Made by a program: the position numbers and the translations under genes. From positions 1-31,233 of the IMG/VR virus record IMGVR_UViG_3300025138_000201: a stretch of 31,233 bases of DNA; one strand, 5' to 3'. This stretch comes from a virus. Shown in pieces: positions 7,921 to 28,740 of this stretch; the first letter of the stretch is position 1; each line of letters opens with the position of its first letter. The notes under the pieces were generated by a model that saw only the letters and a list, made by a program, of their open reading frames with translations, was not told where the DNA came from and searched no databases.

Positions 7921-8053
7921 AAATATTTCTTGAAAACGATAAAACAAAGATTGAACTTTGATATATAATACTTGAAAGAACGTTATTAGTTTTTTAGTTA
8001 TTCTCTAATTTTGTTTCTTTTAATATTCGTTTTTGACAAACAATATATTTTTA

Positions 8054-10062: not shown

Positions 10063-10092
10063 CCTTATAAAGAAATTACTAGAAGTATGTTT
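10063..10092 (-). promoter_or_regulatory. Late-promoter module A (before wedge gene)
   Basis: AAACATA, then 14 bases, then TTTATAAGG. The first A is exactly 21 bases from the first T. The gene's ATG starts almost at once after the box. Confidence 0.6.
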
Positions 10093-10101
10093 AATATAAT
10101 C

Positions 10102-10320
10102 TTAGGATAATGTACCTGTTCCAGTGCCTGTCACAGGTCCGGCTGGACTCGTTCCAATTATAGTTGTGGTTACTGTGGCAGTCTTTATATATGCATCAAT
10201 AGCATCAGCTAAGCCCGAAGCCATATCACTATTAGAAGCATCTTGGTTATCTTCTCTGGTCTTCAAATCGTTTATAAGATTTAATATTTGGGCTTGCAAT
10301 GTTGGTTTAACTAATGGCAT
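10102..10320 (-). CDS. Small phage baseplate-region protein
   Basis: 72 aa. An N-terminal helical part (PTLQAQILNLINDLKTRE) and an alanine-rich middle lead to a Gly/Thr/Pro-rich tail (GPVTGTGTGTL). Similar small proteins with a helical body and a V-G-x-G tail are common between spike and wedge genes in Bacteroidetes Mu-like clusters; I know no defined activity. ATG at 10320 lies 10 bp after the spike gene stop. Confidence 0.7.
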   Translation of the reverse strand: MPLVKPTLQAQILNLINDLKTREDNQDASNSDMASGLADAIDAYIKTATVTTTIIGTSPAGPVTGTGTGTLS

Positions 10321-10329
10321 TTTGAATAA

Positions 10330-10755
10330 TTAATTTTTTAGCAAAGAATCTAATCTCATTTTGATATCTGTGAAAGAACTAAAATTAACAGGTGTACCAC
10401 TCACACCTATTGGCGTTGTTACAGTCATCTGTGTAATAGCATCAAGCAAGTCAGATAGTATAAGCTTTAAAGATTCATTTTCAGTCTGAATAGTGATTAA
10501 TTCAAGCGCAGACGTTTGACTGATAAAAGCATTATATTTATCCAAAAATGTCACAATCACAAAGCTATCTATTACAGGTTCTAATAGAATACCTACACCA
10601 TCCGAAGCTGATAATCTCACATCAAATAATTCAAGCCCTGACTTCACTAATACTACATCACAAGTATTTTCATTTACTACTGATACAGTTGCTAATTCAG
10701 AAAAATATTGTTTTGAATCGGCTATTTTTTTTATACTATCTCTTATAGAAGACAA
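10330..10755 (-). CDS. Probable baseplate spike (gpV-like) protein
   Basis: 141 aa. The N-terminal half has the strand pattern of an OB-fold (FSELATVSVVNENTCDVVLVKSG, then DGVGILLEPVIDSFVIVTFLDKY), as in P2 gpV/Mu gp45 spikes. A helical segment and a short C-terminus follow, without the long spike helix, so this may be a reduced spike. It lies directly after the hub gene, the usual order. The only in-frame start in a suitable place is TTG at 10755, about 20 bp downstream of promoter module B. Confidence 0.65.
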   Translation of the reverse strand: MSSIRDSIKKIADSKQYFSELATVSVVNENTCDVVLVKSGLELFDVRLSASDGVGILLEPVIDSFVIVTFLDKYNAFISQTSALELITIQTENESLKLILSDLLDAITQMTVTTPIGVSGTPVNFSSFTDIKMRLDSLLKN

Positions 10756-10775
10756 TGATTTATATTCTTTTTATA

Positions 10776-10805
10776 CCTTATAAACTTGATAAAATGGTTA
10801 TGTTT
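10776..10805 (-). promoter_or_regulatory. Late-promoter module B (before spike gene)
   Basis: AAACATA-N14-TTTATAAGG with the same 21-base phase as module A; the two boxes are identical in sequence while the spacer differs. Confidence 0.65.
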
Positions 10806-10806
10806 A

Positions 10807-11778
10807 TTAATTCAATTTCTGACTTATAAAGATTTCCTGTCTGAATCCGTTTAGTCCAAAAGTTGTTTTAACTGACTTAACTATATAAGTACCATTTCTC
10901 TCAGGGTATTTTAAATCTATTAATTTTACTTTATCACCATGTCTGACAAGTGGATTTCCAAACGTTATAAAAGACCCTTCAAAACCACTAAATCTATTTT
11001 TAACTATACTAGCTTCTGCAAAGGTTTTTAAATCATCTTCGGTTAAATCATAAGCAAATATTTCCACCGTTTCGCCTGCGCTATCTCCCATTGTGTATTC
11101 AATTTTTTCATTCTTATCATTAATAGAAGTTGCTTTAAGTTTTACCTTTCTTTCTTCTTCTGACTTATAAACCAGTGAATCTGATATAATTTGGTTTTGA
11201 AATACAAATTCTTTTTCTACTGCATAATCAACATCACCCGAATATGAAAGACCTACAAATAATTCACCATCTCTAACAAATGAATTTATTCCATAAGTAT
11301 CTTTTAATTCTTCAAAGACTTGTGTTCCTGTTGCAGAGTCAATATAAAATTTACCTAGTTCTACATCTATTGTAATATTCAATTTTATTTCTGAAGAAAT
11401 ATCTGCTAACATAAAATCTATCAAATCAGATAGATTAACAGACTTAAAAGATTTTGAATAGGTCGCCCTTTTGAACAAATACATAGCATCCTCACAATGC
11501 AACTCTATCGTATTTGAAGTATTTACCTTTGCAAGATATCCTTCAAAAACAACTTGATAATTAAAATCATATCCAAGACTAATAGAAACTTTATCACCTA
11601 ACTTAAAGATTGTTGAATTGCTACCAATAACTATACTCTTACCTTCATACTTTATGTTATTAGGTATCTTAATAATTGCTGTATCTGTGTAGGTTTCATA
11701 AGATGTATTAACTTCTACTTTATTTACATAATTAAATTTCAAATCACCGATTTCTATTATACTTGTTAATCTCTTCAA
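10807..11778 (-). CDS. Baseplate hub protein, gpD/VgrG N-terminal type
   Basis: 323 aa, matching the late-control gene D/hub fold. It has paired beta-barrel domains (VSISLGYDFNYQVVFEGYLAKV near 63-84, IELHCEDAMYLFKR near 91-104), a middle alpha/beta part, and a C-terminal strand region ending NGTYIVKSVKTTFGLNGFRQEI. The hub joins the tail tube to the spike and is assembled as a trimer in this family. It follows the DUF6046 gene by 9 bp and precedes the spike. Intact and normal in length. Confidence 0.78.
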   Translation of the reverse strand: MKRLTSIIEIGDLKFNYVNKVEVNTSYETYTDTAIIKIPNNIKYEGKSIVIGSNSTIFKLGDKVSISLGYDFNYQVVFEGYLAKVNTSNTIELHCEDAMYLFKRATYSKSFKSVNLSDLIDFMLADISSEIKLNITIDVELGKFYIDSATGTQVFEELKDTYGINSFVRDGELFVGLSYSGDVDYAVEKEFVFQNQIISDSLVYKSEEERKVKLKATSINDKNEKIEYTMGDSAGETVEIFAYDLTEDDLKTFAEASIVKNRFSGFEGSFITFGNPLVRHGDKVKLIDLKYPERNGTYIVKSVKTTFGLNGFRQEIFISQKLN

Positions 11779-11787
11779 TTCATTTAT

Positions 11788-12432: not shown

Positions 12433-12448
12433 TCATAGTTTTTATTTT

Positions 12449-14152
12449 TTAAGTGTTCAAATTCATAGACACATCAGAAACAGCACTTAAAAGAGTTTCT
12501 TTTATCATCTTTTCTATATCTTCTTTCGCCTCTGAAATGTTTGTAAAATGATTAGTATATGTTTCTATAAGCTTATTAATTGTAATGTTATTCACAATAG
12601 ATTTAGAACCGCTTACACTTCCAATAGCAGAACCCAATTTATTATCAGCTTCTTTTGATTCATTTTGTTTTGATATATCTAGATTTTTAGCGGTATCTAA
12701 TGCAGATATTTTTGATAAATCATTTGACTTATCATCTTTCTTTATACCATCATAATTTTCAGCAAAAGCATTTCTTCCTTCATCCCTTCTCCTAATCTTT
12801 TCAAATTCACTTATTGATTCGCTTTCAGGTTCTTCATAATCTAATTTCACTTTTTGTACAAAATCACCTGCTTCTTCGGGTGTAGTTGTTACACCATCCC
12901 ACATTGATAAAAATCCTTCTTTTATCTTGTCTGTATCCAGTGTGAAAATTCCGATTATGAAATCACCTAGACCACCTAAAATCTGCTTCGCATTACTCAC
13001 TAATTCAATGAATGTGTTCTTTATAACAGCACTAAATAATTTGATAGCCTTTTGCACCCATTCAGTTTTTTCAATCCAATTGGCTATAACAGATACTACT
13101 TCACTGATTTTAACAATTACAAATCCAACTACTTCCGCTAAACCTGCTATAAAAGGAGATACAAATTCAATTACACTACCAATTCTAGAAAATACTGATT
13201 CTAAAAAACTCCCACTATCAGATGTTAATCCAATCTTTTCAATGACGGAATTAAATGCTACTTGTATAGGTTTAAAAGCAGTCATCAGAGGTCTAAACAT
13301 GTTACCTATTGCCTCACTATTAGTTTTAATAAAAGTCACTAGTGTAATACCTGCATCAACTAATTTTCCTAAAAATGGTAACATCATTTCACCTAGTCCA
13401 ACACCTAATGCCGATGATAAACCGCTTAGAGTAGATAATCTACCTCCAAATGTTTTAGATTGTTTATCCATTAAATCACCCCATTTTCCTGTCTTTCCAC
13501 CGATTGCTTCTAATGATTTATCAAGAATATCAAAGCTTATTTTTCCTTCACTTGCAAGCTTTTTAACTTGTGAAGGTGGTACACCTAATGCATCACTAAG
13601 ATTATCTACAATCGGCACACCTGCCTCTACTAGTTGATTAATATCTTCTGCATAAATAGTACCTGCCATTTTAGCCTTACCATAGATAGTAGTAAGTTCA
13701 TTGAAGTCTTTTCCAGTTGCAGAAGATATGTTACCTAGTGTAGACATCTTCTCTGAAAGCTTGTCATTATCAACACCCATAGCTTTCATTGATGCACCTG
13801 CTTTAATAGCTTGCGCTTCGGTAAATGGTGTGACCATTGACCAATTTTTCATCTCTTCTATCTTTGCATTACCTGCATCTACACTACCGAAGAAAGTTTC
13901 ATATCTCACACGGGTCTGTTCCATTTCCATTCCCATCGTAGCAAGCTTTTTAATACCTGCCGCAATTGCGAAACCTGCGAAAGCTTTGCCCATTAATCCA
14001 ACCATACTACCGAGTCCACCAGTTGATTTAGTGGCGGTCTTGTTAGTTCTGTTTATCTTCTTTTCAAAACCCTCTACATTAGACCCTGCCTTGCTTAGTG
14101 GCGAAGAAAGTTGGTCTTTTAACTTTAAGGTGTATTCTACTAATTTTGACAT
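12449..14152 (-). CDS. Tail tape measure protein
   Basis: Sets tail length and passes through the tube during DNA injection. The 567-aa protein has a helical N-terminus (YTLKLKDQLSSPLSKAG), a Gly/Ala hydrophobic stretch (about 50-72), and the conserved region MEMEQTRVRYETFFGS ... AQAIKAGASMKAMGV ... INQLVEAGVPIVDNLSDALG, typical of Bacteroidetes tape measures. Hydrophobic helices (330-350) and a coiled, charged C-terminus follow. It sits after the frameshifted chaperone gene, as expected. At about 1.5 A per residue the tail would be near 85 nm. It has its own promoter module (C). Confidence 0.92.
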   Translation of the reverse strand: MSKLVEYTLKLKDQLSSPLSKAGSNVEGFEKKINRTNKTATKSTGGLGSMVGLMGKAFAGFAIAAGIKKLATMGMEMEQTRVRYETFFGSVDAGNAKIEEMKNWSMVTPFTEAQAIKAGASMKAMGVDNDKLSEKMSTLGNISSATGKDFNELTTIYGKAKMAGTIYAEDINQLVEAGVPIVDNLSDALGVPPSQVKKLASEGKISFDILDKSLEAIGGKTGKWGDLMDKQSKTFGGRLSTLSGLSSALGVGLGEMMLPFLGKLVDAGITLVTFIKTNSEAIGNMFRPLMTAFKPIQVAFNSVIEKIGLTSDSGSFLESVFSRIGSVIEFVSPFIAGLAEVVGFVIVKISEVVSVIANWIEKTEWVQKAIKLFSAVIKNTFIELVSNAKQILGGLGDFIIGIFTLDTDKIKEGFLSMWDGVTTTPEEAGDFVQKVKLDYEEPESESISEFEKIRRRDEGRNAFAENYDGIKKDDKSNDLSKISALDTAKNLDISKQNESKEADNKLGSAIGSVSGSKSIVNNITINKLIETYTNHFTNISEAKEDIEKMIKETLLSAVSDVSMNLNT

Positions 14153-14170
14153 CTAGTATTAATTTTATAC

Positions 14171-14200
14171 ACTTATAAAGTCTATTTATTGTACATGTTT
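14171..14200 (-). promoter_or_regulatory. Late-promoter module C (before tape measure gene)
   Basis: AAACATG-N14-TTTATAAGT, 21-base phase. It lies directly after the terminator at 14215-14241, so it gives an independent transcript start. Confidence 0.65.
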
Positions 14201-14214
14201 ATTTCAATTTTGAC

Positions 14215-14241
14215 ACAAAAAAAGGTGAAGTTAATCACCTA
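14215..14241 (-). terminator. Terminator after tail chaperone
   Basis: Minus strand AGGTGA-TTAACT-TCACCT followed by a run of seven T. The -1 frame stop codon of the chaperone lies at its edge (14239-14241). Confidence 0.8.
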
Positions 14242-14406
14242 TTTAATTGTTCCTTTTTGTTCTAAAACCCACTTCAATTCATACCATGTATTATAATATT
14301 CTTCTTCCTCTAAATCTTCTGGATTAATATGTAAATGATATCTAATGAGTGCGTTTACTTGTCTGATATAATCACCTTTTTTAATATGATGTGATTCATC
14401 GCTTAG
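14239..14406 (-). CDS. Tail chaperone -1 frame extension (55 codons)
   Basis: The chaperone ORF ends ATA AAA AAA AAC TAA. A -1 slip at A AAA AAC moves the ribosome into a frame reading CTA AGC GAT onwards. That frame stays open for 55 codons (LSDESHHIKKGDYIRQVNAL to the end EQKGTIK) and stops just before the terminator and the tape measure gene. There is no good independent start. The fusion would be about 239 aa. This is the classic G/GT arrangement of tailed phages. It has not been tested here whether the slip occurs. Confidence 0.7.
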   Translation of the reverse strand, partial: LSDESHHIKKGDYIRQVNALIRYHLHINPEDLEEEEYYNTWYELKWVLEQKGTIK

Positions 14407-14957
14407 TTTTTTTTTATAACTACATCATCTAAATCAGCTTGCTTTGAAGCCAATAATGAAGCACTAGCAAAAATATTTTCATCTATTGTTAAATCATCAC
14501 CGCTTACAAAAGCTTCATGTATAATTATTTCACCTAAAACAAATCCGTCTGTAATACCCCTTGTGACTAATTTGAAAAGTTTCTTTTTAACAGCAACATC
14601 TATTTTAAAATAAGCCTTGAAATCACCCGATTCTATACCGAATCCAGCATCTAAATCTTTGGGAACTTTAATCAATTTAGCAGCATCAAAAGAAAACAAA
14701 TCTTTGAACTGGGTACAAATTGAAAACAAAGCTTCATCATCTTCAATAATATTATCACCACCCACAAAATTTTCTTTAATATAATCTTCCGCTAAATCAA
14801 AATAATTATCATCTCCAACACTCGCAAAGATTTCTTTCTTCTTCTTTACGTTACCATTTTTAATATAACTTGTTAGCGATTTACCTGTTTTGTTTGTAAT
14901 GTCAACTGTGAAAATATCACCATGTATTTTCTGTAATTCTTGTAATTCATTTTTCAT
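14403..14957 (-). CDS. Tail assembly chaperone, zero-frame product
   Basis: 184 aa, placed between tail tube and tape measure. No strong sequence motif, but it has the acidic helical character of G-type chaperones (DLAEDYIKENFVGGDNIIEDDEALF) and ends in IKKN encoded by a slippery A-run. Such proteins coat the tape measure and recruit tube subunits; function here is inferred mainly from position and the frameshift site. Its start lies about 33 bp downstream of promoter module D. Confidence 0.72.
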   Translation of the reverse strand: MKNELQELQKIHGDIFTVDITNKTGKSLTSYIKNGNVKKKKEIFASVGDDNYFDLAEDYIKENFVGGDNIIEDDEALFSICTQFKDLFSFDAAKLIKVPKDLDAGFGIESGDFKAYFKIDVAVKKKLFKLVTRGITDGFVLGEIIIHEAFVSGDDLTIDENIFASASLLASKQADLDDVVIKKN

Positions 14958-14987
14958 CTATTTATATACTATTTTTTTATTACCTAT

Positions 14988-15016
14988 ATATATAAACAGA
15001 AATAGGGAATATGTTT
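14988..15016 (-). promoter_or_regulatory. Late-promoter module D (before chaperone gene)
   Basis: AAACATA then TTTATATAT with a spacer one base shorter (20-base phase). The AAACAT half lies in the loop of the preceding hairpin. Confidence 0.5.
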
Positions 15017-15033
15017 TTACACACATTCCCTAT
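15002..15033 (-). terminator. Hairpin after tail tube gene
   Basis: A perfect 9-bp stem ATAGGGAAT/ATTCCCTAT with a 14-base loop, about 20 bp after the tube stop. The downstream U-run is poor (TTTCTGTTT), so it may be a partial terminator or mRNA stabiliser. Confidence 0.5.
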
Positions 15034-15053
15034 CTATTTAAGTTATTTATTAC

Positions 15054-15470
15054 TTAATTATTCCATTGTATCTCTGACATAATCAAGTCATATTCAACTT
15101 GAATACCTTCTGTATCTCCTTGTGCTACATCACGACCATTTCCAACAAATTCACAATTAATTAACTTGTCAGTTGCTGTGCCTGTTCCATCAGGTTTAGC
15201 GTAAGTAACTGTAATTGTAAAAGGTGGTATATCTGTTAAATTACCAGTATCCGAAGCTGCTTGAATTGCTAGTACTTCACTTAAATAAAGTTTTACTTTT
15301 CCTTCTGCTTCATATTTACCGTAACTTCTTGAAATAACCTTATCACCAGCACCCCAATTATTCATCTTTTCTTGTGAATCAGAGTAACTAATTGCAGTTA
15401 TTCCGATTATCGGAATACCTGCAATTGTAGTTACCATTTTAGACCAAGAATATTCTATTCCATTTATCAT
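15054..15470 (-). CDS. Tail tube protein
   Basis: 138 aa. Beta-rich, with INGIEYSWSKMVTTIAGIPIIGITAISYSD at the N-terminus and the features DKVISRSYGKYEAEGKVKLYLSE and FTITVTYAKPDG, as in tube subunits of contractile phages. It follows the sheath gene by 19 bp, the usual sheath-tube order. It should form the inner tube of stacked hexamers. Confidence 0.78.
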   Translation of the reverse strand: MINGIEYSWSKMVTTIAGIPIIGITAISYSDSQEKMNNWGAGDKVISRSYGKYEAEGKVKLYLSEVLAIQAASDTGNLTDIPPFTITVTYAKPDGTGTATDKLINCEFVGNGRDVAQGDTEGIQVEYDLIMSEIQWNN

Positions 15471-15489
15471 TATACATTTTCTATTTTTT

Positions 15490-16641
15490 TTATTTAGTGA
15501 ATCCTATATTAATTTCTATCATTCTAGCTACTGCTTTTGGTTGTAGTTTTAAAGTAATTTGTAGTTTAGAAGAAGCCAAAACATCTTGCTTTGGGTCAAT
15601 CAAAACTTCATACTTAGATAACTCTTCATCAAAAATCATTGAATCTAATGCTTGTGAACAAAGCACTTCAAACTTCGCTATTGATGGCGCTGTTAACTGC
15701 CCATCTATTTGTTCAAGCGGAGACATCAACTCAGGTAATACTACATTCCTAGTATTAAGAATTGCCTTGTGAATTGTTCTTACATTTTCAATCGTAGAAT
15801 AATCAGATGTAGCTATATCAGATGTTAGAGAATCAGTAAAGTAACTACCACCTATTCCAGTGTATTTTCTCGCTATCAAATAACCTTTGTCTTTAAGATT
15901 ACCCAATGCTGTATCAGTTAAATTCTTAGTCAATTCACCAGTACAAAGTGCAGGTGATTCTAATTCTATTCCATTTGAAATATTGAATTTCTTAATCCAT
16001 CCAATACATTCTGAAACTTTTGCAGAACTCAAAATACCTAGTGATAATCCTACACTTGGAATTGATTTACTTAGACTTGTAAAAAGTGTAAGTCCAACAC
16101 CGCTACCTGATTGAACAAATACAGGTGTTACATAAGGCGCGGAAACTAATGCAGTGGGAATAGTTGTATAGTCCAACGCTGTATAGTCAGCACCGTAAAG
16201 AATTGAAACAGGTTTAAATTGATTATAAAGTTCTGTTGCAACACTATTTAAAGTTGTTATTTGTGCAACATCAAAAACCAAAGCATCAGCAAAGACACCG
16301 ACTAACTTTACTTCACTATTTGAAAAGTTTACAACTGTTGTTACTTCTTCAAAATCATAAGCTGCTACTGGTACATCTGCAATTAAGATGTATAATTTTT
16401 GTTCACTATTACCACGGAAAAATTCATCTACTTGGTAATGTATCAAAGGAAATGATGCTGCAATTATTCCCAATTCTTCGGCTTGTCCTAGTGAAAAAAC
16501 CGCTTTGATATTATCAGTTGTAGAAAATCCACTAGGTAATGTATCATTGTAAAAAACTAATGCACTAATTCCATCATTTGAAATATTTTGTTTACCAAGC
16601 CCATTTGTTGATTTATTAAATTTTAATTCATTTAAAGGCAT
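15490..16641 (-). CDS. Contractile tail sheath protein, DUF2586 type
   Basis: 383 aa. The order MPLNELKFNKSTNGLGKQNISNDGISALVFY, a middle domain with an ATP-free alpha/beta insertion, and the C-terminal VRTIHKAILNTRNVVLPELMSPLEQ ... LQPKAVARMIEINIGF fits DUF2586, a Bacteroidetes sheath family. It polymerises around the tube and contracts on infection, which defines this virion as myovirus-like. It starts 92 bp after the capsid stop; a terminator lies between. Confidence 0.85.
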   Translation of the reverse strand: MPLNELKFNKSTNGLGKQNISNDGISALVFYNDTLPSGFSTTDNIKAVFSLGQAEELGIIAASFPLIHYQVDEFFRGNSEQKLYILIADVPVAAYDFEEVTTVVNFSNSEVKLVGVFADALVFDVAQITTLNSVATELYNQFKPVSILYGADYTALDYTTIPTALVSAPYVTPVFVQSGSGVGLTLFTSLSKSIPSVGLSLGILSSAKVSECIGWIKKFNISNGIELESPALCTGELTKNLTDTALGNLKDKGYLIARKYTGIGGSYFTDSLTSDIATSDYSTIENVRTIHKAILNTRNVVLPELMSPLEQIDGQLTAPSIAKFEVLCSQALDSMIFDEELSKYEVLIDPKQDVLASSKLQITLKLQPKAVARMIEINIGFTK

Positions 16642-16674
16642 ATTTTTATATTATTTTTATATCTATTTTTTTGT

Positions 16675-16708
16675 AAAAAAGCCAACCAAAATTTCTCTGA
16701 TTGGCTTT
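16675..16708 (-). terminator. Terminator after major capsid gene
   Basis: AAAGCCAA/TTGGCTTT stem with a T6 run on the minus strand, 26 bp after the capsid stop. It would isolate the abundant capsid transcript. Confidence 0.8.
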
Positions 16709-16733
16709 ATTTAAGTATCTATTTAAAGTGATT

Positions 16734-17678
16734 TTAGACTGCTTGTCTTAGAACTACTACACCTCTATTATCTGTTCTAAGTCTTGAAAAGCCAGCCCAT
16801 ACGATAGCTGAAAAGATTGAACCGTAGTAACTAGGGTCATTCTCGTTATACATCACATCAGGAGTTTTTACAGCTTTTGCAACAAATGCAGGATGCCAAG
16901 CAACGCAAACTAAATGGTCGGTTGCAGCACCAGTATCACCATATGCTTTCAATGTTCCACCTGCTGATACTACACCTACATGATTTCTAATCATGATATC
17001 AAAACCAAATAGTCTTGCTATCATACCAGTCTCCAAAGTGTTTTTAGAAAACTCAGTATAACTAGCATTTAGTAAATCTGAATCAGACAATAGTTGATAA
17101 AACATGTCTACATTCATCATTAATTTTCTTCCGCTTTGTGGTACATTTTGTTTATCTAATTCCCTAGCCATTGACTTTATATCGTCAATTGAAACAGCTT
17201 TTCTGTTACCAGTTGCAGAAGGCGCAAGTGCCTCAGGAGAATCTAGACCAGTTGTAGTAATTGGAGTCAATCCGTTACAGTAAGCAAACAATGCTTCATT
17301 GCCGATAGTCTCAGTCAACGAATCAAAAGCTTCACCCATTATTGACCTTCGTTTATCGTAATTGATTTGAAAGTCTTCTAGATTGCTTACTAATACTGGA
17401 TTAGTTGAATATTGATTTGTAGTATAAATCAAATCTAAATCCGTTCTTTGGTCAACAACCGCAGGCAATACAACCCTATCTTTTGTTGCACCTATAATTG
17501 AACCTGCTTGTGGTACGTGTACTGTTTGGTTTACTACATAACCATCATGATTTGTTACATTTGCTAAGAAACTAGCATTCATTTTTAGGTTTTCTTGAAT
17601 ATCTGATATCCATAATTCTTTATTTAATCCCATTCTAAATTTTATATTTTTTTCTATTTTTGTGGTAGAATATTTCAT
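16734..17678 (-). CDS. Major capsid protein, HK97 fold
   Basis: Forms the icosahedral shell. The sequence has LNKELWISDIQENL, a typical N-terminus of Bacteroidetes and P22-like coat proteins, then SIIGATKDRVVLPAVVDQRTDLDLIYTTNQYSTNP and a C-terminal SRLRTDNRGVVVLRQ. The longest reading is 314 aa from ATG at 17678; the family usually begins at MxLNKE, so ATG at 17633 (residue 16) is more likely, giving 299 aa. Promoter module E lies just upstream and a terminator follows, so this gene is probably expressed from a dedicated transcript. Confidence 0.88.
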   Translation of the reverse strand: MKYSTTKIEKNIKFRMGLNKELWISDIQENLKMNASFLANVTNHDGYVVNQTVHVPQAGSIIGATKDRVVLPAVVDQRTDLDLIYTTNQYSTNPVLVSNLEDFQINYDKRRSIMGEAFDSLTETIGNEALFAYCNGLTPITTTGLDSPEALAPSATGNRKAVSIDDIKSMARELDKQNVPQSGRKLMMNVDMFYQLLSDSDLLNASYTEFSKNTLETGMIARLFGFDIMIRNHVGVVSAGGTLKAYGDTGAATDHLVCVAWHPAFVAKAVKTPDVMYNENDPSYYGSIFSAIVWAGFSRLRTDNRGVVVLRQAV

Positions 17679-17685
17679 CCTACAA

Positions 17686-17714
17686 CTCTATAAACAGAAA
17701 TCTAAAATTTGTTT
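17686..17714 (-). promoter_or_regulatory. Late-promoter module E (before capsid gene)
   Basis: AAACAAA then TTTATAGAG at 20-base phase. It falls between the protease terminator and the capsid start. Confidence 0.55.
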
Positions 17715-17731
17715 ATTTGGGAATTAGACAT

Positions 17732-17756
17732 AAAAAAAGCCCGTATTTCTACGGGC
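17732..17756 (-). terminator. Terminator after protease-scaffold gene
   Basis: Minus strand GCCCGTA-GAAA-TACGGGC followed by T7. GC-rich and very clear in this AT-rich DNA. Confidence 0.9.
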
Positions 17757-17805
17757 ATTTACAACACTTCTAAGGAAGGTAAAATAGTATAATAAGCGTT
17801 GTTAC

Positions 17806-18954
17806 TTAGGAAGGATAAACACCATATTCATCAAAATATAATTGATTATAATATTCTTTATTATTCTTGTAAATGTTTTCTACTTCATCACTATTTTCTT
17901 TTTCCATCTGTCTTAGAGAAACAGGTTTTTTATTTGATACTTCTGAAATACTATCAACTAATCCCATAACATCAACACCTTTTTGATTTACTATAATAGC
18001 ATCCAAAGCTTTAACACCTCCATCAAAATCAATGCTTAAAAAATTCTTCCATGTATCTTTAATATCATCTGAAATCTTTCCATCATTTACCGCTGATTCT
18101 ATAACCTTATCTTCTTTATCAGAAACTTCTTTATTCATTTTATCAGTAGCTTCTTTCTCTAATTCTTCAATTCTTTTAGCTAATTCCTGATTCTGTCTTT
18201 TTAAGATATCTAATTCTGATTCTTCTTCTTCAACAACCTCTTCTTCATCTTTAACAGATTCATCTTCATTCACTATTTCTTTAATAGTTTCATCAATAAC
18301 TTCTTCTTTTGTTTCAATTGTTTCTTCAACAATCACTTCATCTTTAATTTCACTCTTATTATCCATTAGATTAATATTTATTTTTTGATAGATATTTAAA
18401 ATATCTTCGTACCCGTATTCATTAATATTTTCAATTATTCTTTCTTTTACTTCAATCTCTTCATCAATAAAACCTGCATCTTTCGCTTCATCAGAAGTAT
18501 AAAATGTTTCTTTCTTCATCAACTCATTTAATGAGATTTCTGTAATATTTGTTCTATTCTTAAATATATTTATTAGCGTATGATTGAATTTATCATTGAT
18601 TGTAGTAGAACCACCAGTTGCTGAATGAATCATAAATAGACCCATTTTAGACATCTTTATAACATCACCTGTCATTGCAATTACACCTGCCATTGAAGCG
18701 GCTAGACCTGCAATTATAGTCGTAACAATTACATCTTTATCTTTATCTAGTATTGCATCAACAATATCATAACCTGATACAATACTACCACCACCCGAAT
18801 TGATTCTAATTTCAATATCTTTAATATTATTCTTTACTAAGCTTCTAAATTCGTTTGCAAAGATGATTCCATCAGTATCTTTTCCAATGATACCTTTAAT
18901 ATACATTGTAGCTGAATCATCATTATTTATTGTAGTATACCTATATTCATTCAT
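17806..18954 (-). CDS. Head maturation protease (ClpP type) fused to scaffold
   Basis: Cleaves the scaffold and itself during head assembly. The N-terminal 170 residues are ClpP-like: IRINSGGGSIVSGYDIVDAI (49-68), nucleophile S87 in GLAASMAG, H110 in MGLFMIHS, and D164 in GFIDE as the likely third residue. Residues about 200-280 are a strongly acidic coiled coil (VEEEESELDILKRQNQELAKRIEELEKE), the scaffold. M197 (ATG ending at 18366) could start scaffold alone, as in Mu I/Z. ATG at 18954 lies two bases after promoter module F. 382 aa. Confidence 0.85.
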   Translation of the reverse strand: MNEYRYTTINNDDSATMYIKGIIGKDTDGIIFANEFRSLVKNNIKDIEIRINSGGGSIVSGYDIVDAILDKDKDVIVTTIIAGLAASMAGVIAMTGDVIKMSKMGLFMIHSATGGSTTINDKFNHTLINIFKNRTNITEISLNELMKKETFYTSDEAKDAGFIDEEIEVKERIIENINEYGYEDILNIYQKININLMDNKSEIKDEVIVEETIETKEEVIDETIKEIVNEDESVKDEEEVVEEEESELDILKRQNQELAKRIEELEKEATDKMNKEVSDKEDKVIESAVNDGKISDDIKDTWKNFLSIDFDGGVKALDAIIVNQKGVDVMGLVDSISEVSNKKPVSLRQMEKENSDEVENIYKNNKEYYNQLYFDEYGVYPS

Positions 18955-18956
18955 AT

Positions 18957-18986
18957 CTATTTAAAGACATTTATGAATATTTGTTT
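18957..18986 (-). promoter_or_regulatory. Late-promoter module F (before protease gene)
   Basis: AAACAAA-N14-TTTAAATAG, 21-base phase. It overlaps the last bases of the fibre gene, and the protease ATG follows by two bases. Confidence 0.5.
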
Positions 18987-19851
18987 ATAGTACGTGGGAG
19001 AATGTAATATAACCCCTGTTAGATATTGGTTCATCAAATTTAGTTGAAGAACCAATATAAGTTAGAATCAATTGTGTAGATGATATATTAGAATACCATT
19101 GAACAATAAAATCGTTATGATTAAATAGTACGCTACCATCATCAGTATAAATGGTAATATTTAGTCCTCTTATTTTATTTTTATCAACACTTGTATTGAT
19201 AGTAATTTCATAAAAAGTATTAGCCATTGGACTAAATGAACCAATATTAACAGTCTTATGATATAGGGTAGAAGCTTGATTTTGTAGCGTTGTAATATCG
19301 CTTTCAATTGCTACAATATCGCTTTCCGAGTTAGCTATTTTTACACTATTAGATGTTACATCAGCTTGAATTGTTGTTACATCAGCTTGAATTGTTGTTA
19401 CATCACCTTCTATTGTTGTTATATCAGCTTCAACATTTTGTGTAATAACATCCTTCATCGTATTTGGTTGTGTAACACCGTTAAATAAAATAGTACCACC
19501 AACACCAGTAGATGTATCAGCAATTGCACTGATATCATTAATGACATCCTTTGTAAAACCATCTGCAAAAACACGTGATTCAGTCACAGTATTTTTTTGT
19601 ATATAGGCAGGATATACACCCAAATAACCATTAAATTTTAAGACTTCACCATCAATATAAACATAACCAGAAGTGATAAAGATATCGTCAGCCACTATTG
19701 AAAATTGACATCCATTGATGACAAAATTACTACCAATACCTTCACAAATTGCTTCAATTCCATTCAATGATTCATCTTGTATCATCAAAAAATCTTCATT
19801 CGTAATTGGTATTCCACCAGTTGGCAAAGGATTAATAAACTTTCTACTCAT
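18985..19851 (-). CDS. Tail fibre-like protein with coiled-coil stalk
   Basis: 288 aa. The N-terminal 95 residues (LPTGGIPITNEDFLMIQDESLNGIEAI onward) look like the particle-binding end of Bacteroidetes fibres. A run of heptads (TTIQADVTTIQADV, about 145-195) predicts a trimeric coiled coil, and a beta-rich head follows. The DNA under the stalk has near-exact 21-bp tandem repeats (about 19358-19435) that can slip by whole heptads. Likely host-receptor binding or a spacer for a receptor-binding domain. It is adjacent to the gpI-position gene, as fibres usually are. Confidence 0.75.
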   Translation of the reverse strand: MSRKFINPLPTGGIPITNEDFLMIQDESLNGIEAICEGIGSNFVINGCQFSIVADDIFITSGYVYIDGEVLKFNGYLGVYPAYIQKNTVTESRVFADGFTKDVINDISAIADTSTGVGGTILFNGVTQPNTMKDVITQNVEADITTIEGDVTTIQADVTTIQADVTSNSVKIANSESDIVAIESDITTLQNQASTLYHKTVNIGSFSPMANTFYEITINTSVDKNKIRGLNITIYTDDGSVLFNHNDFIVQWYSNISSTQLILTYIGSSTKFDEPISNRGYITFSHVL

Positions 19852-19871
19852 TTCATATTATAATTTTTTAT

Positions 19872-20357
19872 TTAGAAGGAAATCATTTCGAAATTTCTAT
19901 CCACTCTTCTATATTGATTTACTGTTGATTCAATTAAATCTTTTATAGATTCTAATTGAATCGGGTAATACACCTTAAAATCAAATTCCTGTATATACTC
20001 CACCTCATTATGAAAATAAATTGCCATCGCTTCTACCTCATTGTGAAAATAAATTGATTTATTTTCTACTTCATTAAAGAAGTAATAGATAATTAAATCC
20101 TCAATACCTCCATCTACGTATATATCACTATATAATCTAAATGGATTATGTAGGTCATTTAAAAGCTTTGTAAATAAGACCACTTGTGAATTCCATTTAG
20201 CATTTCTTTCTGTTTCCTTGTAAAATGTAGTAACCAAATAATCATTCAAACTTTGTAATGGACTAACTAATATTTTCAAAAAAGACACAAGTTTAAACAC
20301 TCGCTTATGAGGTGGTAATAAGTTTTGTGTAATATTTATAAAGTTTAATTTTCTCAT
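19872..20357 (-). CDS. Probable baseplate protein in the gpI position
   Basis: 161 aa. No clear motif, but it directly follows the gpJ-like gene (ATGA overlap) and precedes the fibre gene, the place of the P2/Mu gpI-type wedge protein. The middle has three 11-residue tandem units (YFFNEVENKSI, YFHNEVEAMAI, YFHNEVEYIQE; DNA 19986-20084), an unusual internal expansion. Function is inferred from context only. Confidence 0.6.
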   Translation of the reverse strand: MRKLNFINITQNLLPPHKRVFKLVSFLKILVSPLQSLNDYLVTTFYKETERNAKWNSQVVLFTKLLNDLHNPFRLYSDIYVDGGIEDLIIYYFFNEVENKSIYFHNEVEAMAIYFHNEVEYIQEFDFKVYYPIQLESIKDLIESTVNQYRRVDRNFEMISF

Positions 20358-21184
20358 AAAACAAATGGTATCATATTTAATGTATCTTCAATCTTAAAAG
20401 TATCTGTATCCTCGGTAACTACATACCCTGACTGTGTTTCATACTTTCGTTCCACAATTTGTGAACTTGTTACTAATTGACTAGACTCACGTGTTTTAAG
20501 AGTAGTAAAATCAACATCTCTTACACCTTCTGCTGATTGTATTGCATTTTCAATTTGTGATTTATAAATACTACCGCTAAAATCTAAATTTTGAAAATAC
20601 TCGTTAATCTTCTCAATGATAGAAGCTTTTACAATATCGGGAAGTATGGACGTATCATAATATATATCCGCTATAATTTGAACCCTATCAGCATCAAAAG
20701 AACTTACTAACAGTTTACTACCAGCCATTTTAATCTCATTCAAGTAACCTTTTAAACCATTTATTTCATCCAAATTCAATTTTTCCAGAGTATTATCTAT
20801 ACCATCTTTTGCCACTTTTATAAGTACATTTCTATTGATTGTATTTTCCTTAATAGAACATCTAGAAATTATCTGTGAAGTGTCATCTATTGTTTCATAA
20901 ACTATTACATCATCAATAATAGATAGTGTGCTACCATATTGAAATTCTAAAACTTTCTTCTGTAACCATCTAGCAGTTCCCACTGTTGATGAATCAATTA
21001 TCTCTTCTAAATCAACTTTAAATAATTCCCATGTTCTTTCATGGAAATGTGTAGCAACTGCGATAACGTATGAAAAGAGTCTATATATAGCAGTTTGAGA
21101 AGAAGAGTTTAAATTTATAAGTCCATCTTCTGCATTCTTAGCATCTAATATTTGTGTGTGAATTTCTTGAACCGAACGTGCCAT
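20354..21184 (-). CDS. Baseplate J-like protein
   Basis: 276 aa. The segment RVQIIADIYYDTSIL ... FQNLDFSGSIYKSQIENAIQSAEGVRDVDF near 168-230 matches the conserved C-terminal half of gpJ/gp47 wedge proteins. The N-terminus (SVQEIHTQILDAKNAEDGLINLNSSSQ) is typical of the reduced Bacteroidetes form. It builds the baseplate periphery. Promoter module G lies 20 bp upstream of its ATG, and its stop overlaps the next start (ATGA). Confidence 0.75.
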   Translation of the reverse strand: MARSVQEIHTQILDAKNAEDGLINLNSSSQTAIYRLFSYVIAVATHFHERTWELFKVDLEEIIDSSTVGTARWLQKKVLEFQYGSTLSIIDDVIVYETIDDTSQIISRCSIKENTINRNVLIKVAKDGIDNTLEKLNLDEINGLKGYLNEIKMAGSKLLVSSFDADRVQIIADIYYDTSILPDIVKASIIEKINEYFQNLDFSGSIYKSQIENAIQSAEGVRDVDFTTLKTRESSQLVTSSQIVERKYETQSGYVVTEDTDTFKIEDTLNMIPFVL

Positions 21185-21201
21185 AAATAAGTATTTTATT
21201 A

Positions 21202-21232
21202 CTTATATAAAGCAGTATATAAATCTGTGTTT
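21202..21232 (-). promoter_or_regulatory. Late-promoter module G (before gpJ-like gene)
   Basis: AAACACA-N14-TTTATATAAG, 21-base phase, 20 bp from the ATG. It overlaps the stop codon of the gp37-like gene. Confidence 0.6.
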
Positions 21233-21692
21233 ATTCTGTTTCGGTTGTTAAATCTAAGTCTAATAATATATCATCACCTGCATCTTTATCCACAACGTAA
21301 TCAACAAAATGCAATTCAAATGTTAGAATTGAAACGATTACATTATCATAATCTGAATCAACTTCTTGACTTACTTTTAAAAGAGGTTCAAAATTGATTC
21401 CATCAGAATATTTATCAAGTAAATTATTTACCTCTTCTTCTAAATCATAAAGCTTTTCACCATCATCAAAATCTTCTGTAACAATATGAATGTTCAAATC
21501 TGCTATTCCTTTGTGATATTTAACCGACCTAAAAGTATATTCTATATTAGAAATCTCAATCAATATAGAAGGTAAATAAAGTGTTGATTTACCAGTTGAA
21601 AGCCTAGATACTTGATTGTTATATCTCCTTATATCATTAACATTAATATTAGTGGATATCAATGATTTTATACTGGTAAATACTTCTTTCAT
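21231..21692 (-). CDS. Neck/tail-terminator-like protein (Mu gp37 position)
   Basis: 153 aa with an alpha/beta pattern (LYLPSILIEISNIEYTFRS, ADLNIHIVTEDFDDG) and an acidic C-terminus (DDILLDLDLTTETE). The shape and the position directly after the gpG-like gene, with an ATGA overlap, suit a DUF1834/gp37-like tail terminator. Motif support is weak, so the function is mostly contextual. Confidence 0.6.
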   Translation of the reverse strand: MKEVFTSIKSLISTNINVNDIRRYNNQVSRLSTGKSTLYLPSILIEISNIEYTFRSVKYHKGIADLNIHIVTEDFDDGEKLYDLEEEVNNLLDKYSDGINFEPLLKVSQEVDSDYDNVIVSILTFELHFVDYVVDKDAGDDILLDLDLTTETE

Positions 21693-22093
21693 AACTTAAA
21701 TAAACTATCTATTTTTTCTTCTATAATATTTTCAATTTGTTTATCAAGTTTAACCGATTCATAAAACATTTCTCTTTTGTCAATTGTAGTAGTACCTTCT
21801 TGATGATAAATTGCATAATCAGAATCCATTCTTATCTTAACTTTTGAAGAAGAAGATGCCTTTACTTTCATACTATCCCTCATCGTACCAGACTTAACTA
21901 ATATCTTTGTATTATACTTACCCTTTCTTTCTTTCCATTTCTGAAAACCACTCTTTTCTGTACCTTCTTTCTTGAATTGTAGTCTAAAAAATAAAAGAGT
22001 ATGTTGACCCATATCTTTTGTCAACTTCTTTTTGAAGCTTCTATTGAGTTTGCTAATTAGTCCATCAAATTTAAATTTATTCTTCTGTATCAC
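21689..22093 (-). CDS. Virion morphogenesis protein, Mu gpG / P2 gpS type
   Basis: 134 aa, a tail completion or head-tail joining protein. The motif FQKWKERKGKYNTKILVKSGTMRDSMKV ... YAIYHQEGT is characteristic of the gpG/gpS family. The first start is GTG at 22093, with an overlapping out-of-frame ATG. Promoter module H ends two bases upstream, so a transcript from it would begin inside the listed start. A shorter product starting at M28 is possible. It follows the inserted HNH gene. Confidence 0.8.
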   Translation of the reverse strand: MIQKNKFKFDGLISKLNRSFKKKLTKDMGQHTLLFFRLQFKKEGTEKSGFQKWKERKGKYNTKILVKSGTMRDSMKVKASSSSKVKIRMDSDYAIYHQEGTTTIDKREMFYESVKLDKQIENIIEEKIDSLFKL

Positions 22094-22095
22094 AT

Positions 22096-22125
22096 ATTTA
22101 TAAAGACTAAGTATGTGATTTGTTT
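22096..22125 (-). promoter_or_regulatory. Late-promoter module H (before gpG-like gene)
   Basis: AAACAAA-N14-TTTATAAAT, 21-base phase. The AAAC end overlaps the HNH gene stop codon. Confidence 0.55.
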
Positions 22126-22624
22126 AATTGAAATTAAATGGTTCTAAACCAATCTCAATTAACTTCTTATCATATGTATGGGCTGCTTCTACTTCATCTT
22201 TATAGCATCCCAAATGTAATTGGCTACCTTTAATTGTTATTTGTACTTGCCACTTTCCGTTCCGTACATTCCAACAAACACCCTTGTATATACTGGAAGA
22301 TTTTTTATCTGAATTATTGTATATTCTTTTTATCTCTTTAACTATCTCTATATTCTCAACACTATTGTTTGTCTTAACCAAATCTCTATGTTTTACTAAT
22401 CTATTATCACCGTCTATTTTGTGACTTAAAAAAGTATTCGCTACCAGTTGATGAATATAAAAGGACTTCTTTCTTCCATTTTTATTCAATGTGAAAACAT
22501 AATAATCAAAGAGTGTTACATGTATTTTACAAGCTTCAATAACACCTTTCTTGAATACTCTAAGATTACCTAAATTTGATATTTCATAATTTTCAAACTC
22601 TTTAATTTCTTTCCATACTTCCAT
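22124..22624 (-). CDS. NUMOD4-HNH-AP2 homing endonuclease
   Basis: Free-standing mobile endonuclease, 166 aa. Residues 4-23 (WKEIKEFENYEISNLGNLRV) are NUMOD4. The HNH core has H58 (YIHQLVANTFL), H79 (VKHRD) and N86/N87/N91 (TNNSVENIEIV). Residues about 110-160 are an AP2 DNA-binding domain (IYKGVCWNVRNGKWQVQITIKGSQLHLG, EAAHTYD). It separates the Mu F-like and G-like genes, which are normally neighbours, and fits exactly into the gap. Such enzymes cut intron-free or gene-free alleles and copy themselves across. All key residues are present. Confidence 0.9.
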   Translation of the reverse strand: MEVWKEIKEFENYEISNLGNLRVFKKGVIEACKIHVTLFDYYVFTLNKNGRKKSFYIHQLVANTFLSHKIDGDNRLVKHRDLVKTNNSVENIEIVKEIKRIYNNSDKKSSSIYKGVCWNVRNGKWQVQITIKGSQLHLGCYKDEVEAAHTYDKKLIEIGLEPFNFN

Positions 22625-22655
22625 ATAATATATATCATCTGAAAATCAAAAAGTT

Positions 22656-23438
22656 TTACCACCGCTTCTTTTCTTTTGCCGAAACTTCCGCATATTCATT
22701 TAATAGTTTTTGTGTTTCGGTTGGTATATCTTTAAAGTAATTATGATTTTCTCCAAATATTTTCTGTTCTTTCCCTGCATTAAAATTGAACTTAGAAGAA
22801 TATGTTTCAATATTTTTTTTCTTAGTTATACCAATCTTTTCAGCTTGCTTTTTAGTTAATTGTCTAACTGTGCATCTACAATTAAAACCGTTCACAGGAA
22901 AATTTGTATTCCAAAATGAATGAGATACAGGTAAGACTAAACCGTTAAATTCTTGATGTTCTTGTCTAACCTTATTATCATCCCTTGTAATATATTGTAG
23001 ATATGGATAACGCTTCTTCTGCCTGTCAATCTTATTCCAATAAGCTGTTAATTTAGCTTGTTCGGTGACTGTATTAAATTCAGCTTTCAACCAATTTCTA
23101 TTATAATTAACAGAAATTTTTAAAGCTGCTTTTTCAAATTCTTTGTAGGCTATTATCTTACCATTCTTAGTAAGTAGTGAAGCAATTTCTTTTTGTTCAT
23201 TATGATTCTTAAATAGAGAAAATATATTAACATTCTTCTGTAATGCAAATAGAACTTCTTTATCATTTGAATACTTTTGAATGAAATTCTTTTTCAAATT
23301 CTTATTCAAATAATCAAATGTTTTTACTACTAATTCATCGTTAAAAAGTTCAACCGTCTTACCTTTTAAATCATAAATATTTTTGTACCACCTTTTCAAT
23401 GAAGAAATTTTTGAAGAAAAGAAATCAGCATTTACCAT
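22656..23438 (-). CDS. Head morphogenesis protein, Mu gpF-like
   Basis: 260 aa, minor capsid/ejection-type protein near the portal. The signature is RYPYLQYITRDDNKVRQEHQEFNGLVLPV ... FPVNGFNCRCTVRQL (about 162-212), which matches Phage_Mu_F. The reading frame stays open upstream of ATG 23438 towards the portal stop, but no ATG, GTG or TTG is available there. Follows the portal gene, as in Mu. Confidence 0.9.
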   Translation of the reverse strand: MVNADFFSSKISSLKRWYKNIYDLKGKTVELFNDELVVKTFDYLNKNLKKNFIQKYSNDKEVLFALQKNVNIFSLFKNHNEQKEIASLLTKNGKIIAYKEFEKAALKISVNYNRNWLKAEFNTVTEQAKLTAYWNKIDRQKKRYPYLQYITRDDNKVRQEHQEFNGLVLPVSHSFWNTNFPVNGFNCRCTVRQLTKKQAEKIGITKKKNIETYSSKFNFNAGKEQKIFGENHNYFKDIPTETQKLLNEYAEVSAKEKKRW

Positions 23439-23488
23439 TTCTTCCGTTACATGTCCACCGCTACATGTATAAACTTTATTCTCAGTGG

Positions 23489-24682: not shown

Positions 24683-24701
24683 TTATCATTTCATTCTTTT
24701 T

Positions 24702-25127
24702 TTAATCGTAATAGAATTTTGATACACTTCCATATACAATCCCGTTATTATTAGATTCAGTTTGTTTTAATGGTAAATCAGGCAAAAGACTACCTTTATT
24801 CACCATCTTTAAAAATGTGATTGCTTGTTCGTATCGCGCCAATCTTGACTCTGGAAGACTTCTTGGGCTTACCCTCGCATGTACATGATATAAAGCTATA
24901 TCAACACCATACATAACTAATTGTTGATTTCTAGTGTCACCCGAAGTAGAAGCAGTTGCAATATTAAATATTTCATTCACATCATATCTAGTTCTTAAAT
25001 ATGAAGTCATTTCACTAATTGAAGCCAAAACAGCCGCTTCTAATAAACCATCATTAGATTCAATAATCTGTGTTAAATTTTCAGCTTTTATTAATGTGTC
25101 GAAATCACTTACAGTTAGAAATATCAT
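24702..25127 (-). CDS. Mu gp36-like protein (DUF1320)
   Basis: 141 aa, helical head-tail adaptor-type protein. FLTVSDFDTLIKAENLTQII, AVLASISEMTSYLRTRYDV and VDIALYHVHARVSPRSLPESRLARYEQAITFLKMVNKG are the DUF1320 pattern. In Mu the gene lies after the capsid; here it lies between terminase and portal. A weak module (AAACAAA at 25172-25178) is upstream, but its -10-like box (TTTACACAG) is poor. Confidence 0.88.
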   Translation of the reverse strand: MIFLTVSDFDTLIKAENLTQIIESNDGLLEAAVLASISEMTSYLRTRYDVNEIFNIATASTSGDTRNQQLVMYGVDIALYHVHARVSPRSLPESRLARYEQAITFLKMVNKGSLLPDLPLKQTESNNNGIVYGSVSKFYYD

Positions 25128-25185
25128 GTACTTTATTCTCTTTTATAACTGTGTAAAAAAGAATAGTCGTTTTTGTTTATTTCAC

Positions 25186-26571
25186 TTAAAAACTATATCT
25201 ACCATTAATTTCTTTTGTACCAAAATCATATTTGAATACTTCTTTTCCTCTTTTAAATATTTCAAATTCTACTGAAAATATTAAGTTTACCATATAATCA
25301 AAAGCATCGGAACAATGACCGTATCTTTCCCAACTAAGACCACTAGCTTTATCTTTAACCTTTGATTTATCTTTACCTGTATTTGTCATTTTCTGAAAGC
25401 TTAAATCTTCAATAAGTTTCTTACAAGTCTTATTCATTTGAATGTGTAGGTGTTGATAATTTGACTCAAAAATTGAATTAATAAAAAGTCCTCTTTGCTG
25501 GACAGGTGGGTTAATAGTCGGATACCTCATAATAGAATTGAAATCTCTTAACTCTTCTTCAATGATTGTATAATTATTAAAACCTGCTTCATTTGTAGAA
25601 TCTTGTTTCTTTCCAGTGGCATCTCCTGTAATCGTAATACCATTTATATGAGTTGAATATCTTCTTCTAAATTCTTGACAGATATGAAGCGTATTATTAT
25701 TTGGATATTTTAATTGTATTTCATCAATGATATTAATTGTCTTTTCGTCATCAGAAAGCTGCGCTATTAAACAAGTTGTGGACGGTAATACGTTAAAATC
25801 CCAACTTAAATAGAGATGCTTATCAGGGTCATAATCAATGTCTTCTTTTACGTTCTTATCTAAATCAAATTGATTATAAAATAATCCTGTTTGGTCGGGA
25901 ACACCCCATTCATTGAGTGCATATACTCTATAAAATGCCTTAGAATGTTTCATCTTAGATTCAAGTACTTTCTTAGATGATTCATCTAAAAAGGCATTAT
26001 CTTTAAATGTAGATTCTACTACATCAGCTTCTGAATCTACTGTATCAAAGAATCTTTTCTTTAACCATAAATCTTCTGAAATTGGATTGAATGCTAGTAT
26101 GATTTGTTTGTAATAACTTGATTTATCTCTTAGTCTTAAATCTAATTGGTCAAAATCATTTTCATCTATTTCAGAAGCTTCTTCTACCATGATAGAAGTA
26201 ATTCCCTTAACTGATTTTATCTTTTCAACATCATCAAGACCAGCAAATAAGATTTCATTACCATTAAATTGTTCAACTATTCTTAGAGGTTGTGTATAGG
26301 TTTTAATTCTATACATAAGACCCATGTCAGAAAAATGGGCTATAATATCCTGATAACAAGATTCTTTTAATGATGAATATGTTTTTCTAACTACTAAAAT
26401 TCGTTGCTTTTCAACTGAAAGTAACCTAAGAACTATCTTTAAAAATGCACCGTTTGATTTTCCCGATGAACCACCTCCTTTGAGTACTAGATATCTCTTT
26501 TCTGAATTTAAAACTTTATCAATTACCCACTGATTACATTTTACTGTAACCTCCTTTATTTTATAAGCCAT
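25186..26571 (-). CDS. terL: Large terminase subunit
   Basis: DNA-packaging motor, 461 aa. The ATPase domain has Walker A GGGSSGKS (32-39), Walker B IMVEEA (127-132) and a coupling AFNP (160-163). The RNase H-like nuclease has D258 (YLSWDFN), D317 (ITGDATG) and D422/D425 (CSDAFDYM). All catalytic residues are intact. It is preceded by promoter module K, 22 bp before the ATG, and by the 55-aa ORF. Confidence 0.96.
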   Translation of the reverse strand: MAYKIKEVTVKCNQWVIDKVLNSEKRYLVLKGGGSSGKSNGAFLKIVLRLLSVEKQRILVVRKTYSSLKESCYQDIIAHFSDMGLMYRIKTYTQPLRIVEQFNGNEILFAGLDDVEKIKSVKGITSIMVEEASEIDENDFDQLDLRLRDKSSYYKQIILAFNPISEDLWLKKRFFDTVDSEADVVESTFKDNAFLDESSKKVLESKMKHSKAFYRVYALNEWGVPDQTGLFYNQFDLDKNVKEDIDYDPDKHLYLSWDFNVLPSTTCLIAQLSDDEKTINIIDEIQLKYPNNNTLHICQEFRRRYSTHINGITITGDATGKKQDSTNEAGFNNYTIIEEELRDFNSIMRYPTINPPVQQRGLFINSIFESNYQHLHIQMNKTCKKLIEDLSFQKMTNTGKDKSKVKDKASGLSWERYGHCSDAFDYMVNLIFSVEFEIFKRGKEVFKYDFGTKEINGRYSF

Positions 26572-26589
26572 TTATTACTACTTCCTTTG

Positions 26590-26619
26590 TAGTATAAATT
26601 GACTTTGATAGTTCTGTTT
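26590..26619 (-). promoter_or_regulatory. Late-promoter module K (before terL)
   Basis: AAACAGA-N14-TTTATACTA, 21-base phase, 22 bp from the terL ATG. It overlaps the stop of the 55-aa ORF. Confidence 0.55.
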
Positions 26620-28643: not shown

Positions 28644-28740
28644 TTTATTTAGTTATTTTTTTCTAAGATTATATATCCAATCTGAAAAACTAAAAAACAG
28701 TATTTATAAAACTTTTTCAGTTTATCACTTTATAAATTTG

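Follow-up and report, generated by a model that had tools for sequence, protein, structure and literature searches.

A phage-encoded ECF sigma factor and a conserved two-box motif upstream of late genes in a Bacteroidota phage

Genome organization and relatives

The stretch of DNA analyzed here (the window) is an IMG/VR record of 31,233 bases with 30% G+C, and it belongs to a bacterial virus of Bacteroidota. A series of genes on the minus strand extends from 28.6 to 8.1 kb. The series starts with genes for a nuclease-like protein, a sigma factor, a putative TerS, TerL, a gp36-like protein, the portal, a gpF-like protein, and an HNH homing endonuclease. These are followed by a gpG-like gene, the gene at 21231–21692, a gpJ-like gene, two more genes, and the protease, capsid, sheath, and tube genes, and then by the tail chaperone, tape measure, baseplate hub, spike-like, wedge, and holin genes. 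Winoviridae of Flavobacterium and Winogradskyella have a homologous contractile-tail head-tail module in which the gene order is conserved relative to the window. A search with TerL identified two related phages. G001 is a prophage of Pontibacter aydingkolensis KACC 19255 (TerL identity 69%, approximately 42% G+C), and G002 has a TerL identity of 71% and approximately 31% G+C.

A SoFic-like Fic protein is encoded at the edge of the record (198–1277, minus strand). The HNH/NUMOD4 homing endonuclease gene (22124–22624, minus strand) is located between the gpF-like and gpG-like genes, and it is absent from this place in G001 and G002. The nuclease-like protein (27909–28643, minus strand) is conserved and carries a D-x-D-(I/V)-K-(S/A) motif; it is possibly a PD-(D/E)XK nuclease. 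Its gene is upstream of the sigma factor gene in all three sigma-bearing phages, and a VRR-NUC gene is upstream of terS in phages pippi8 and FPSV-S1. The nuclease-like gene and a RusA-like gene are separated by a divergent gap (28644–28737). The inverted repeat in this gap (CTGAAAAA...TTTTTCAG) may be an operator for the sigma operon. The tail assembly chaperone gene (14403–14957, minus strand) has a run of A at its end (TATAAAAAAAAACTAA), and the open −1 frame at its 3′ end (IRQVNALIRYHLHINPEDLEEEEYYNTWYELKWVLEQKGTIK, then a stop) is kept in G001 and G002. By analogy with other tail chaperones, a programmed −1 frameshift involving 14160–14402 is likely.

A phage-encoded sigma factor

The first-pass annotation had described the product of the gene directly upstream of the putative terS as an ECF-like sigma factor, and sequence profile and fold both place it among ECF factors over its whole length. 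It matches TIGR02937 with 55.5 bits (cut-off 42.9) across residues 17–185, and it is similar to TIGR02985, a Bacteroidota ECF subfamily, with a score below the cut-off of that model. In the Pfam profile search it matched Sigma70_r4_2 and did not reach Sigma70_r2. SigW, SigH, SigE, and AlgU were matched in the PDB by sequence and fold. The best fold matches are ECF sigma factors, and the SigW alignment covers nearly the full length of the protein. The structure model (mean pLDDT 70.6 from a three-sequence alignment) consists of two helical domains with a low-confidence stretch at residues 86–132 between them, as expected for a factor that has regions 2 and 4 only and a flexible linker.

In the window, the neighbors of the sigma factor gene are the nuclease-like gene and the putative terS. 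Homologues with 39–43% identity are encoded in G001 and G002, where their genes likewise precede terS-terL. ECF sigma factors commonly, though not always, have a cognate anti-sigma factor. In G002 only, the sigma factor gene lies between two small ORFs with apparent membrane segments (L014:2273–2483 and 3109–3393); they are candidates for anti-sigma factors or other membrane proteins.

A two-box motif in front of late genes

The pattern AAAC-N16/17-TTTATA has eight exact matches on the minus strand between positions 8000 and 26800 and none on the plus strand. In 1,000 dinucleotide-preserving shuffles, the mean was 0.36 matches and the maximum was four. All eight exact sites are in gaps directly upstream of genes, namely those for TerL, the gpG-like protein, the gpJ-like protein, capsid, tail chaperone, tape measure, the product of 10330–10755 (“spike”), and wedge (Table 1). 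The motif is located on the coding strand upstream of structural genes, and it is absent from early genes.

Table 1. Sigma factor gene, putative promoters, and predicted terminators in the window
Feature	Coordinates	Strand	Pattern	Distance to start	Remarks
Phage ECF (group IV) sigma factor	27220..27777	-			185 aa, regions 2 and 4; directly upstream of putative terS
TerL promoter (putative)	26593..26619	-	AAAC-N17-TTTATA	21 nt to ATG	Orthologous in both relatives
gp36-like adaptor promoter (putative)	25152..25178	-	AAAC-N17-TTTACA	24 nt to ATG	Orthologous in both relatives
gpG-like neck gene promoter (putative)	22099..22125	-	AAAC-N17-TTTATA	5 nt to GTG	Orthologous in G001
Promoter of gpJ-like baseplate gene 20354–21184 (putative)	21206..21232	-	N17	21 nt to ATG	Orthologous in both relatives
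Head maturation protease promoter (putative)	18960..18986	-	AAAC-N17-TTTAAA	5 nt to ATG	Orthologous in both relatives
Intrinsic terminator (predicted)	17739..17756	-			Directly upstream of capsid promoter; same position in both relatives
Capsid promoter (putative)	17689..17714	-	AAAC-N16-TTTATA	10 nt to ORF start	N16 in relatives
15-bp hairpin	15000..15035	-			Overlaps chaperone promoter, then weak T tract
Tail assembly chaperone promoter (putative)	14991..15016	-	N16		N16 in all three phages
Intrinsic terminator (predicted)	14223..14240	-			Directly upstream of tape-measure promoter; same position in both relatives
Tape measure promoter (putative)	14174..14200	-	N17	21 nt to ATG	Orthologous in both relatives
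Promoter of spike-like gene 10330–10755 (putative)	10779..10805	-	N17		Counterpart in G001/G002 not detected
Baseplate wedge promoter (putative)	10066..10092	-	N17	4 nt to ATG	5 nt in relatives

The pair AAACAWA...TTTATAWR had initially been listed in front of nine genes. Eight of these sites are exact, and the ninth, in front of the protease gene, departs from the pattern in its second box. A phase, measured from the start of one box to the start of the other, of 21 bp (N17), with 20 bp (N16) at two sites, was read correctly; the positions first given are approximately 3 bp off. A weak site before the gp36-like gene is real, as it is orthologous in two relatives. A possible site before the HNH gene had no support in a weight-matrix scan and was rejected. 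A weight matrix trained without the window gave site scores that overlap background, and the tape-measure, chaperone, and spike sites scored low, which counts against the promoter model. Because the matrix scan alone overlaps background, our argument rests on orthologous position.

Two exact copies lie outside the counted late region, one inside the sigma factor gene (27393–27419) and one on the plus strand (28709–28734), and both lack the A after AAAC. Weak AAAC-N17-TATAT copies precede the sigma factor gene in the window and G001. Autoregulation of the sigma factor was considered from these copies; it is not claimed, because no copy precedes the gene in G002.

Conservation in sigma-bearing relatives

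G001 and G002 played no part in motif definition. The unmodified exact pattern has five matches on the late coding strand and none on the other strand in G001, and six and one, respectively, in G002. A reversed control pattern has no match in G001 and one in G002. A motif search over related phages with homologous sigma factors had been suggested in the first-pass annotation, and the motif is present in both. The sites in G001 read A[AG]ACA/TTTATA.

Eight positions are occupied in all three phages: TerL, gp36, gpJ-like, protease, capsid, tail chaperone, tape measure, and wedge. At orthologous sites the boxes are 94% identical and the spacers 38% identical, compared to 34% for spacers of non-orthologous sites, indicating that the sites are conserved and not the surrounding DNA. 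The spacers are therefore unrelated, as had been noted from the window. Spacer length is kept by position in the three phages (16 at capsid and chaperone; 17 at TerL, gp36, gpJ-like, and tape measure) and varies at protease and wedge.

A relaxed pattern (A[AG]AC, TTTA[TAC]A) was set after the sites had been seen. In the three phages, 28 of its 33 late-strand matches end no more than 60 nt upstream of a gene, a space that makes up 7.3% of positions, and four relaxed matches are on the opposite strand. The binomial figure for this placement (2e-27) overstates the case because the pattern was relaxed post hoc; the exact-pattern counts are free of this fault. Abundance of the motif in coding DNA or on the opposite strand had been named beforehand as evidence against promoters. 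In the shuffles and the three-phage site map the motif is rare in both, so the computational half of that test speaks for promoters. Chance matches might be suspected in A+T-rich DNA, as the window has 30% G+C. The shuffles, the strand bias, and orthologous conservation that includes a phage of approximately 42% G+C argue against this explanation; comparison with the relatives refutes it, and we give it practically no weight.

An extra site in G002 (L015:6427–6453) precedes a gene group downstream of a gene for a long tail-like protein. The genes behind it may have tail and lysis functions, and no counterpart of this site was found in the window.

Relatives without the sigma factor gene

Viral scans (queries: sigma factor, TerL, the gpJ-like protein, and the nuclease-like protein), a contig scan, and searches of 390 and 395 Bacteroidota genomes yielded no further sigma-bearing phages beyond G001 and G002. 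Co-occurrence of sigma factor and motif therefore rests on three independent sigma-bearing phages (the window, G001, and G002). The same scans otherwise returned relatives without a sigma factor gene and a 9.8-kb contig (L051) from metagenome 3300001589 that is 100% identical to positions 13631–23407 of the window.

A sigma profile search had no match in pippi8, FPSV-S1, fF4, and Peternella, and no sigma factor gene was found in the prophage neighborhoods of other relatives, which are partial stretches. In the searched relatives without the sigma factor gene, the motif is absent from the late gaps that correspond to those of the window. These relatives have zero to four exact motifs per strand and record. 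Inspection of the matches in pippi8, FPSV-S1, fF4, Peternella, and others placed nearly all of them inside genes or on the wrong strand. One match in pippi8 (13664–13689) adjoins a host-type TATATTTG box. Three phages thus have the sigma factor gene along with the motif, and the searched relatives have neither the gene nor a motif in these gaps.

This distribution bears on whether the boxes could be promoters of a host sigma factor, such as a host ECF factor, with the phage factor acting elsewhere or merely assisting. Bacteroidota hosts do have several ECF sigma factors, seven in F. psychrophilum (PMC9723704). However, the late gaps of related Bacteroidota phages without the sigma factor gene do not carry the motif, and the −10 box is CGT in the host ECF motif described for F. 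psychrophilum (PMC9723704). Directly upstream of the late genes there is no host sigmaA box TAnnTTTG; the first-pass annotation had likewise found no resemblance to the host promoter, and no TTTG...TAnnTTTG occurs at these places. In addition, the motif is kept at 30% and approximately 42% G+C, and phages of such different base composition probably have different hosts. We consider promoters of a host factor very unlikely.

Another regulator could bind the motif if the two boxes formed a two-part operator for an activator or repressor that acts as a dimer. Some ends are partly mirrored, as in AAACA...TGTTT at the capsid site. However, most sites, and those of G001, do not have inverted-repeat halves, and the spacing is 16 at some sites and 17 at others, so a dyad operator was judged very unlikely. 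Apart from the late region and the sigma factor, only a DUF5675 protein, one weakly similar large protein, and the nuclease-like gene are common to the three phages that bear the motif. No second recognizable transcription regulator common to the window, G001, and G002 was found, which also argues against an operator; the shared proteins of unknown family could include an unrecognized regulator.

Terminators and distances to start codons

In each of the three phages, terminator-like hairpins with T tracts directly precede the promoters of capsid and tape measure. The hairpin at the chaperone promoter is weaker in G001 and missing in G002. The conserved hairpin-promoter pairs suggest a late region that is partly split into units, with a sigma promoter restarting transcription in each. 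This pairing and the closeness of some sites to start codons both add to the first-pass annotation.

In the three phages, the motif ends 4, 5, and 5 nt from the wedge start codon and 5, 5, and 7 nt from the protease start codon. The gpG-like site is as close in G001 as in the window (5 nt) if translation in G001 begins at the ATG that immediately follows it. The window capsid ORF was started 15 codons too early, as G001 and G002 both begin at the position of Met16; the capsid site is 55 nt from this conserved start, compared to 56 and 57 nt in the relatives.

The start codons of wedge, protease, and gpG-like are located where transcription should begin, which predicts leaderless mRNAs. Otherwise, most translation of these genes should come from transcripts that start farther upstream. 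In F. psychrophilum, approximately 5.5% of the mRNAs mapped are leaderless (PMC9723704), and 5′ UTRs below 10 nt account for approximately 3.7% in B. thetaiotaomicron (PMC7366714). The three sites at 4–5 nt count against the promoter model, as they require a type of mRNA that is uncommon in Bacteroidota. Closeness to start codons could also mean that the module works in the mRNA, as a translation or processing signal. However, the distance to the start codon ranges from 4 to 57 nt across genes, and box spacing is rigid, as in DNA recognition; a signal in mRNA is highly improbable.

Proposed late regulon

Sites with an AAC-type −35 and a −10 box 16–17 bp apart exist in the window, and we infer their assignment to the phage sigma factor from co-occurrence and architecture. 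The description of the −35 box and spacing as ECF-like holds for the box order and 16–17 bp spacing of the sites. ECF sigma factors recognize −35 boxes of the AAC type at a strict spacing; Mycobacterium tuberculosis SigH reads GGAAYA at −34 to −29, with an optimal spacer of 17 bp (PMC6411747). On the SigH frame, (T)AAACA would set TTTATA at approximately −12 to −7 and the start site approximately 7 nt after it. The TTTATA −10 box counts against the assignment, as the host ECF motif known from Flavobacterium has CGT in this box (PMC9723704).

The module is very probably the promoter of the phage ECF sigma factor, which would drive about ten dispersed, partly terminator-insulated late promoters. 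A dispersed late regulon directed by this factor had been proposed from the window, and all computationally testable parts are in its favor. Site positions, strand bias, orthologous conservation, sigma factor identity, co-occurrence, and terminator-like hairpins were computed directly; recognition of the sites, timing, and start sites are predictions. The sigma factor would be made during lytic growth or induction from its gene just upstream of the terminase genes, and it would load host core RNA polymerase. As expected from ECF architecture, region 4 would read the −35 box (T)A(A/G)ACA and region 2 the −10 box TTTATA 16–17 bp away. About ten promoters would then fire (terL, gp36-like, gpG-like, gpJ-like, protease, capsid, tail chaperone, tape measure, spike-like, and wedge). 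The terminators before the capsid and tape-measure promoters would divide the late region into units that can be tuned independently, and wedge, protease, and gpG-like start codons at the transcription start would give leaderless mRNAs.

A further reading is offered tentatively and may well prove wrong. In this lineage of Bacteroidota phages, about ten ECF-sigma promoters with partial insulation by terminators would replace a single late operon, and several would start on the start codon to give leaderless structural mRNAs. Dosage would be set promoter by promoter, with 16 bp kept at capsid and tail chaperone and 17 bp at most others.

Comparison with known systems

T4 gp55 and SPO1 gp28 and gp33-34 are phage sigma-like factors that drive many dispersed late promoters. 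They belong to large virulent phages and are not ECF sigma factors, and T4 late promoters have a −10 box only and need the sliding clamp. The window system is like T4 and SPO1 in its many dispersed late promoters and unlike them in that its factor is an ECF sigma. In phages phiEco32 and 7-11, a phage-encoded sigma factor switches on middle and structural genes through the host core polymerase (PMC4331800). The window system is similar in its phage sigma factor for structural genes, and in both cases the promoters were found by comparing intergenic gaps (PMC4331800).

Xpf of the Bacillus subtilis prophage PBSX is classed as a group IV sigma factor (PMC10141391). The likeness to Xpf is that of a prophage-encoded factor in the size range of ECF sigmas, with a link to prophage induction; unlike the window system, PBSX is from another phylum and has one late operon and no dispersed set. 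Work by McDonnell et al. in 1994 reportedly showed that Xpf controls this late operon.

Among Winoviridae, phages pippi8 and FPSV-S1 of Flavobacterium and Peternella of Winogradskyella have the homologous head-tail module but lack the sigma factor gene and the gap motif. Our search of open-access papers turned up no account of a phage sigma factor controlling late genes in Bacteroidota. Leaderless late mRNAs are predicted here in a phylum where such mRNAs are uncommon, and the sigma factor and its sites offer a possible orthogonal promoter system for Bacteroidota genetics.

Reported phage ECF promoters have an extended −10 and no recognizable −35 (PMC5333181) and are few in number. In contrast, the window and its two relatives have both boxes at a strict 16–17 bp and about ten dispersed sites, in Bacteroidota phages. 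This makes a concrete, conserved, putative sigma-promoter pair with full −35 and −10 boxes, compared to phage ECF promoters without a −35. Phage sigma factors for late genes are already known, and the window system is a variant with both boxes, dispersed, in Bacteroidota phages.
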